Shown here one piece after another: positions 15,522-47,551 of a stretch of 64,000 nucleotides of DNA. The notes below the pieces were generated by a model, which was not told the DNA's origin, searched no databases, and saw nothing but the letters and a program-made list of their open reading frames with translations. Every line of letters starts with the position of its first letter. The stretch's first letter is position 1. The position numbers and the translations under genes are program-made. Source of the stretch: Candidatus Bathyarchaeota archaeon (GTDB lineage: Archaea > Thermoproteota > Bathyarchaeia > 40CM-2-53-6 > JALHTG01); the NCBI GenBank assembly GCA_022865705.1, contig JALHTG010000019.1, forward strand, positions 1 to 64,000, given 5' to 3'.

Positions 15522-15640
15522 CATATGGTATGGAATAATCGGAGAGCATGTGCTGAGGAAACAATCGTTGACGGTCTCCTATTCGAGCCAATCAATCTCA
15601 GCGTTATCTTAATCAGATAGTTAGAGCAAACTCGGCCACA

Positions 15641-15797
15641 GCGGGGGTTGCCAAGCCAGGTCAAAGGCGCAGAGCCAACTCAGCGCGTCAGCTTCAGGAG
15701 CCTGTCCCGAAGGGGTTCGAGATTGGAAGGTACGCCTTGCCAACGAAAAGGTTCAAAATGGCATCGAAGAACCATGAAACTCCCTCCCCCCGCACCA
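15641..15797 (+). tRNA. tRNA-Leu(CAG), class II, with three BHB introns (15673-15690, 15722-15749, 15758-15780) and encoded CCA
   Basis: Spliced 88-nt sequence GCGGGGG TT GCC AAGCCAGGTCAAA GGC G CAGGC TTCAGGA GCCTG TCCCGAAGGGGTTC GAGGG TTCAAAT CCCTC CCCCCGC A CCA has all stems paired; 4-bp BHB central helices GCGC/GCGU, UUCG/CGAA, UUCA/UGAA flank the cuts. Confidence 0.94.
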
Positions 15798-15826: not shown

Positions 15827-16696
15827 TTGATCGTTATTCCTGGCCCGGCATCTGTGAATCTAGGGCGAAGAATCGGGGAGCTGTCGAAGGCGAGAGTTGT
15901 CTCAGTTGAGTTCAAGCGTTTTGCAGACGGAGAGTCATATGTACGGTTTGAAGATGCAGTCAAGAACGAGGATGTAGTCGTTGTTCAGACAACTGGTCCT
16001 CCTCAAAACGAAAACCTGATCCAACTTCTGCTGATGGCAGACAACGCAAGAGACATGGAGGCCAGAAGCATCACGGCCGTTGTGCCTTACCTCGCTTATG
16101 CCAGGCAGGACGATCGGTTCAGATCAGGTGAAGCATTTAGCATAAGAACCATTGTGACTTTGCTGAAGACGTGCGGCGTGAGCAGAATAGTCACAGTGAA
16201 CTCGCACAACCCCGCATTGTTGAAGACTCTGCCTGTGGCAACGGAGGATCTCTCTGCGTTCAGCCTTCTGGCTGAACATTTCAAGAATAGAGGCTTTGAA
16301 GGCGCTTTCTCTGCATCCTTGGGGAAGAAGGGAATGGATGTAGCGATTGAGGCGAACAAGATACTGAAGGGGGGATGCGGCTATGTTTCTACGCAACGAG
16401 ACAGAGTGGGTGGGGAGGTCACCATTGAGAAGAAAACCTTGCCAGTTAGGAAAAGGGATGTCGTGGTTTTTGATGATGTTATGAGCAGTGGTAAGTCTAT
16501 GGCCAAGGCCGTAACCTGGATCAAGGAACAAGGAGCAAGAAGAGTGTACGTCGCCTGTGTTCATGTAATTTTGATCGACGACGGTAGAGAACGTGTTCTT
16601 AAGAGTGGCGCGGAAGGCATCGTGGGCACGGACAGTGTTCCAGGCCCACTCAGTGAGGTATCAATTGCACCTCTGATTGTCAGCACATTGAAGTAG
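15827..16696 (+). CDS. prs: Ribose-phosphate pyrophosphokinase
   Basis: FADGESYVRFEDAVKNEDVVVVQ, PYLAYARQDDRF, VVFDDVMSSGKSM PRPP motif. Confidence 0.93.
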   Translation: MIVIPGPASVNLGRRIGELSKARVVSVEFKRFADGESYVRFEDAVKNEDVVVVQTTGPPQNENLIQLLLMADNARDMEARSITAVVPYLAYARQDDRFRSGEAFSIRTIVTLLKTCGVSRIVTVNSHNPALLKTLPVATEDLSAFSLLAEHFKNRGFEGAFSASLGKKGMDVAIEANKILKGGCGYVSTQRDRVGGEVTIEKKTLPVRKRDVVVFDDVMSSGKSMAKAVTWIKEQGARRVYVACVHVILIDDGRERVLKSGAEGIVGTDSVPGPLSEVSIAPLIVSTLK

Positions 16697-46530: not shown

Positions 46531-47067
46531 CTATCTTCTCCATGTCAATTTTGTGAAGTGGATTGGTGAGCGTATTTTGTGTGGGAGGCCTTGCTTGATC
46601 GCGGATAGGGCGTTTGCGAGTAGGGCTGTGAGGCAGAGGAGCACGTGTGACAGGACGTTTCTCAGGCCTCGGGTTCGAAGCTGACGCAGACCGAAATATG
46701 TCTCAAGTCTTGACACGACTCTTTCTATGGCGGATCGTTTCCGGTATAGGCGTCTCAGGCTTGGTGGTCCGTGGCTGCGGAATTTGCGGTCGACGCGGAG
46801 AACCCGTCTGCCTTTCGCCTGGTTCCTTGGATATGGTATGACGGGTTTCGCGTCTAGACGCTTCACCTCTTCTCTTACGGCTTGGCTTGAGTACTGTGAA
46901 TCCGCGACCACGTGGCGTACTCTACGCTTACGTCTGCGCCTGATAGCTTTCTTGAGGAGCGTTGGCGCGACCTTCTTCTCGTTCACGTTCGCAGGCTCCA
47001 GAATGACTGCTAGAGGCATCTCGCTCTTTGTGTCGGCTGCCAAGTGAACGCCGTATCCAAGCGTCAC
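46531..47067 (-). pseudogene. DDE transposase, C-terminal part (frame-shifted)
   Basis: VVADSQYSSQAVREEVKRL, RKRSAIERVVSRLETYFGLRQLRTRGL. Confidence 0.85.
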
Positions 47068-47551
47068 GTTTCCGCCCCTGCTTTCTTAAACCTGCCTCGA
47101 TATCGGACAGTCCGCGGCGGCTATTCTTGGGGTCTCTGCGGCTGTACGCCTTGATGAATGTGGCGTCTAAAGCCACGGTTCTGGCGTCCAATATGTTCAT
47201 CCGGGCAAGCTGCTTCACGCAATGTGCCATGATCTCTTGGAAAGCTTCAGGGCCGATTCGCTTCCTGAACCTTGAGAGTATCGATGGATGGTACGATTTC
47301 TCGCCTTCTTTAACGTCGCATAACATGCGGAGATCCTCATCGTTCTGGAGCAGCCTATGCAGCTCATCATAGCCCTCGATACGCGCTACTCGCTTGAGAA
47401 GCTCCGTCTTGAATTGGCCGAACAGGCTTCTCGGATGTCTACCGGTCCGCCTTCTCCCGTAGCTTCTTTCCAAGGCTTGCTCTACAAAATCTAGATCCAC
47501 CGCCTGAAACAAATCATGCAGAGCCCTACACTCGTTCACCCGTGTCACCAA
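46928..47551 (-). pseudogene. DDE transposase, N-terminal part (frame-shifted near 47075)
   Basis: SILSRFRKRIGPEAFQEIMAHCVKQLARMNILDARTVALDATFIKAYSRRDP; homology continues in the 46531-47067 frame. Confidence 0.85.

Follow-up and report, generated by a model that had tools for sequence, protein, structure and literature searches.

The locus at positions 15641-15797 of the window (by which we mean the whole 64,000-nucleotide stretch of DNA that was analysed) gave no hit when the unspliced window was scanned with ARAGORN and Rfam. Our results show that it is a leucine tRNA gene, tRNA-Leu(CAG), whose four exons are split by three bulge-helix-bulge (BHB) introns at tRNA positions 29/30, 51/52 and 59/60 (Table 1). 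Removal of the three introns leaves an 88 nt class II tRNA that ARAGORN calls tRNA-Leu(cag), in which every stem (acceptor, D with 3 bp, anticodon, variable and T) is paired and the CCA is encoded. This is the fully paired cloverleaf that the initial annotation of this DNA had described, and the coordinates, sequences and intron boundaries given there also match the sequence.

The same introns were returned independently by an enumerator, a script blind to that proposal which lists all BHB-like cut pairs, removes up to three introns and scores the resulting cloverleaf. Its top solution was exactly the combination of introns in Table 1, and the runners-up had a worse T-arm. A chance origin of the three-intron structure was ruled out by dinucleotide shuffling with the acceptor ends kept, in which none of 120 shuffles (0/120) gave any valid solution. 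When the junctions were compared with the BHB criterion of two 3-nt bulges around a 4-bp helix, with the cut after the second nucleotide, all three introns showed 4 of 4 central pairs. The annotation's view that each junction is a BHB thus stands for the central helices, but intron 2 has no outer helix and represents a relaxed motif.

Table 1. Features of the tRNA-Leu(CAG) locus and its flanks, in window coordinates.
Feature	Position	Strand	Description
TATA-like element TTATCTTAAT	15604..15613	+	about 28-37 nt upstream of tRNA nt 1; read from sequence, function inferred
Exon 1	15641..15672	+	5' strand of the acceptor stem, D-arm and nt 26-29; the Leu(GAG) paralogue starts with the identical sequence
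Intron 1 (29/30)	15673..15690	+	18 nt; BHB GCGC/GCGU; bulges AG^A, CA^G
Exon 2	15691..15721	+	remaining anticodon arm, long variable arm, T-stem nt 49-51; loop TTCAGGA; anticodon CAG 15695-15697
Intron 2 (51/52, T-stem)	15722..15749	+	28 nt; central helix UUCG/CGAA, inner UUGG/CCAA; outer helix absent
Exon 3	15750..15757	+	8 nt, T-arm nt 52-59; from the spliced product and the enumerator
Intron 3 (59/60, T-loop)	15758..15780	+	23 nt; central helix UUCA/UGAA, inner UGG/CCA
Exon 4	15781..15797	+	T-arm nt 60-65, 3' strand of the acceptor stem, discriminator A and CCA; from sequence and ARAGORN
Ribose-phosphate pyrophosphokinase gene	15827..16696	+	start codon TTG preceded by GGAGGA; lies 29 nt downstream of the tRNA; functionally separate

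Upstream of 30 tRNA genes of the same genome, an AT-rich peak with TTTA, TTAA or TTAT motifs at about -36 to -26 was found in 12. The TATA-like element of the window gene occupies this enriched zone, and we count it in favour of the mechanism proposed below, under which the gene would be transcribed.

Next, we considered how the two T-arm introns could be excised. In the full precursor folded at 37 °C, the inner helix of intron 2 formed with a probability of 0.81-0.95 and its central helix with 0.42-0.63. Pairing of the inner/outer helices of intron 3 rose from 0.17/0.03 in the full precursor to 0.87/0.87 after removal of intron 2, and stood at just 0.38 when introns 1 and 2 were both removed, which makes the order effect model-dependent; the central helix of intron 3 was low in every folding state. 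In the enumerated structures, removal of intron 2 extends the outer helix of intron 3 from 2 pairs to 5, because that outer helix is the T-stem itself. Since the T-stem exists only without intron 2, these models make it likely that intron 2 (51/52) leaves before intron 3 (59/60), and we infer the same order in the cell. Folding and enumerated helices together lend computational support to the ordered splicing that the initial annotation had suggested; the gain in the outer helix on removal of intron 2 was also recovered, although as a change from 2 to 5 pairs and not as the single extra pair stated there.

The lack of an outer helix in intron 2 means that its removal probably needs a relaxed-specificity enzyme, namely an (alpha-beta)2 endonuclease with the crenarchaeal-type loop. 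Enzymes of the (alpha-beta)2 type carrying a loop with an equivalent of Aeropyrum pernix (A. pernix) K44 cut relaxed motifs (PMC6379350). The present genome encodes a catalytic alpha subunit (PF01974, contig C59) in which the Y/H/K triad is kept and K39 aligns to A. pernix K44, a second PF01974 protein (contig C10) without the catalytic triad, and RtcB; two PF01974 proteins are also found in most genomes of the order. These sequences predict a two-subunit (alpha-beta)2 splicing endonuclease with the crenarchaeal-type loop lysine and relaxed cleavage, in agreement with the heteromeric, broad-specificity type that the annotation had proposed to look for. In the mechanism that we propose, the primary transcript would be cleaved by this heterotetrameric (alpha-beta)2 endonuclease of relaxed substrate specificity, intron 2 being excised first, which would complete the T-stem, and intron 3 following; RtcB would then join the exons into the 88-nt class II tRNA, and the mature tRNA-Leu(CAG) would decode CUG. 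We put the probability of this joint explanation, a CUG-decoding tRNA-Leu(CAG) with three BHB introns, (alpha-beta)2 cleavage, RtcB ligation and intron 2 likely removed first, at roughly 0.93.

The genome, from an uncultured archaeon, belongs to the class Bathyarchaeia: its DP2 shares 58% identity with that of the nearest named Bathyarchaeota, and the best DP2 matches lie inside the assigned order. No genome of the same family was found among the relatives searched, and no SSU rRNA in the bin. A contaminant origin of the contig with the window gene (C107) was rejected, as this contig carries Leu(CAG), Leu(TAG), Val and Cys genes, its DP2 is nearest to the assigned order and its GC is like that of other contigs. 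We judged C107 and the rest of the bin to be from the same organism, despite the presence of two different tRNA-Cys(GCA) genes (L002 on C52, L003 on C107) and two different tRNA-Ser(UGA) genes (L018 on C58, L212 on C99), which could reflect duplication or a mixed bin. The PRPP synthetase encoded downstream of the tRNA is, unlike DP2, closer to that of one genome from a different order within the class (52% identity) than to those of the assigned order (about 34-42%), and its sequence would allow gene transfer or replacement as a possible explanation; synteny of the tRNA with this gene was sought in relatives and not found. Elsewhere in the window, at 46531-47551, two overlapping ORFs resemble, by eye, a frameshift-broken transposase.

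Introns are frequent in this genome. Our partial inventory holds 30 solved tRNA genes (solver rows L181, L192 and L205 were dropped as wrong or duplicate), 27 of which are interrupted, by 49 introns, with two or more introns in 18 genes; BHB boundaries in D-arms were predicted with less certainty than those in other arms. Three introns are found in Leu(CAG), Leu(UAA), Lys(UUU) and Ser(UGA) (n = 4), and the five Leu isoacceptors are all present and all interrupted. Only 19 tRNA matches in the genome passed the Rfam cut-off. According to the initial annotation, its proposal would fall with an intact second tRNA-Leu(CAG) if the present copy were unexpressed; no such second gene was seen in the assembly, a draft bin that is 91.6% complete and 6.3% contaminated, and the genome's best match to the Leu covariance model was itself an interrupted gene, Leu(CAA), with 89.7 bits, against about 101-111 for Leu genes of relatives that have no introns. 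The genome also contains decayed tRNA-Ala-like copies (L193, C35:13549; L203, C54:20340; L210, C82:22405; L214, C107:152222). L193 and L203 have in common a repeat of roughly 130 nt after the tRNA-like 5' part, and L193 and L210 an upstream repeat, GGTTGGTTTCGGCTGCCTCT.

A D-arm pattern search of the genome identified a tRNA-Leu(GAG) paralogue on contig C104. This gene is devoid of intron 1 and carries introns at 51/52 (ATTGGCGAAGGAAAACCTTCCCAACGAAAA, 30 nt) and 59/60 (ATGAGCTTTGAGCTCAGGAAAA, 22 nt), whose interiors have diverged from those of the window gene; the inner and central helices are kept, with one mismatch in the second central helix. The Leu(GAG) gene of a relative, G004, has a 22-nt intron at 51/52 in which the pairs have changed and are yet kept (UUCG:CGGA, UCGG:CCGA). 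The paralogue and G004 together give strong comparative support to introns 2 and 3 as predicted from sequence.

Among the relatives examined, Leu(CAG) lacks introns in most, and in the others it is interrupted once, at 30/31 or 37/38; its T-arm reads GTGGG/CCCAC and is uninterrupted. Within the order, Leu tRNAs with several introns are frequent: Leu(UAA) genes are interrupted at 15/16, 30/31 and 37/38 and Leu(CAA) genes at 17/18, 30/31 and 37/38 in several families. When we searched by exact pattern for Leu genes with an intron at 59/60, 3 of 260 genomes of the class gave matches: the present one (both genes), G036 and G021. The match in G036 (L361, G036:C13, about 1340-1552) is a 212-nt tRNA-Leu(CAA), solved incompletely by the script, with predicted introns at 30/31, 37/38 and 59/60; its T-loop intron is apparently independent and belongs to another isoacceptor. 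The match in G021 was rejected as a repeated tRNA 3' end and not an intron. There (L363, G021:C68, near 1500, reverse strand), a second copy of the tRNA-Leu 3' end directly follows the gene, an arrangement that an integrating element could produce. In relatives of family f3 (L297, L298, L302, L305 and L307, just upstream of 1495), Leu tRNAs seem to have a further intron at about 7/8, in the acceptor/D junction; L307, for example, reads GCGGGGG^AAGGCACC...CCCGTG^TTGCC and has an 8-bp inner helix.

Two other explanations of the window gene were weighed against the three-intron reading, and one of them concerns mainly intron 1. In the enumerator this intron has 4 central, 2 inner and 3 outer pairs, while in isolated folding its BHB is weak (pair probability of about 0.07) and competes with another hairpin and with the D-stem. 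The gene could then be real and differ in one junction or in the order of splicing, with intron 1 excised from another fold, the GCGC.GAG/CUC.GCGC hairpin that isolated folding prefers, or with intron 2 not removed first. We consider this very improbable, given that no other intron 1 appeared among the enumerated solutions and that 29/30 is also interrupted in Ser(CGA), Ser(UGA), Ser(GGA), Arg(UCG), Arg(GCG) and Gly(GCC) of the same genome. We accepted intron 1 because it has a BHB of its own, its removal restores a perfect anticodon stem and its position is used in these six other tRNA genes.

The remaining explanation is that of a decaying or silent copy in which interruptions accumulated while CUG was read through wobble by Leu(UAG), a tRNA that could do so and whose gene, Leu(TAG), lies on the same contig; decay of tRNA genes does occur in this genome, with one of the decayed tRNA-Ala copies also on this contig. 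A copy in decay would sit poorly, however, with stems that are all intact, junctions that obey the BHB rules, a paralogue that keeps the same T-arm introns with paired helices and a genome in which most other tRNA genes are interrupted likewise. Moreover, CTG is common in ten genes of the window (124 of 583 Leu codons), and we rate this explanation as marginally less probable still than a misplaced junction.

How the three-intron tRNA-Leu(CAG) acquired its T-arm introns is a complementary, evolutionary matter that does not compete with its proposed function. A tentative reading, to which we give somewhat less than even weight, is that duplication or gene conversion spread the T-arm introns from Leu(GAG) to Leu(CAG). 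Over 85 positions, the mature CAG and GAG sequences of this genome show 6 differences, five of which fall in the anticodon arm, and the GAGGG/CCCTC T-arm of the window gene is that of Leu(GAG) in the G004/G013 family, where the 51/52 intron is present in G004, and not the intron-less GTGGG/CCCAC arm of the relatives' Leu(CAG). Against a spread stand the diverged interiors, which mean that the event was not recent, the weak tree signal in 85-nt tRNAs and the possibility of independent insertion through transposition. The simplest history suggested by these comparisons is that the T-arm and its introns moved from Leu(GAG) to Leu(CAG), intron 1 being gained afterwards or alongside. With a little more reserve, we suggest that the doubly interrupted T-arm, in which one motif is assembled by removal of the other, may have passed as a unit between Leu isoacceptors by conversion or duplication. 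If true, this would be a route of intron gain other than the transposition of single introns.

The phenomenon itself is known. In Thermoproteales, tRNA genes can hold as many as three introns, splicing is iterative and the enzymes are of the (alpha-beta)2 type (PMC8450103, PMC4033280, PMC4090602), and the present gene resembles those of Pyrobaculum and its relatives in the number of BHB introns (up to three in a gene), in their noncanonical positions, in the (alpha-beta)2 endonuclease and in a spacing so close that removal of one intron must precede formation of the next motif; it differs in belonging to the Bathyarchaeia and in having two introns in one T-arm, common to two Leu isoacceptors. 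The initial annotation had presented multi-intron tRNAs as known mainly from Thermoproteales, which overstated the novelty, as they are common across the order studied here and have been published for Caldiarchaeum (PMC3293823), Thaumarchaeota (PMC8450103) and Asgard archaea (PMC11291895). Candidatus Caldiarchaeum subterraneum has multi-intron tRNAs, including a tRNA-Leu, with introns in D-, V- and T-arms (PMC3293823), but only 13 of its 45 genes are interrupted and three hold several introns, far below the density in the present bathyarchaeon. In the Asgard Atabeyarchaeia and Freyarchaeia, 92-95% of tRNA genes are interrupted, over half of them by several introns and often at noncanonical positions (PMC11291895); the density found here (27 of 30 interrupted, 18 with two or more) equals theirs, in an unrelated archaeal lineage and in a draft genome. 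The tRNA-Ile(UAU) of the red alga Cyanidioschyzon merolae is likewise interrupted by three introns, of which one lies in the T-arm (PMC9602550), but it is eukaryotic and its introns are distributed over the D-, anticodon and T-arms, whereas two lie in the T-arm here.

The tRNA-intron sets of this bathyarchaeal order are among the densest known. No earlier report for Bathyarchaeia was found in the literature searched, which leaves out most subscription papers. What sets the gene apart is the bathyarchaeal lineage and the unusual, doubly interrupted T-arm, which may have spread between isoacceptors. On the practical side, this gene was missed by both ARAGORN and the Rfam tRNA model. The pair of T-arm introns offers a clear test case for ordered splicing, and as each intron is present in some sister genomes and absent from others, it is possible to trace how tRNA introns are gained, lost and spread. 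Bathyarchaeia are widespread and found largely outside hot springs, and the extension of extreme tRNA interruption to this class would argue against a purely hyperthermophile explanation.
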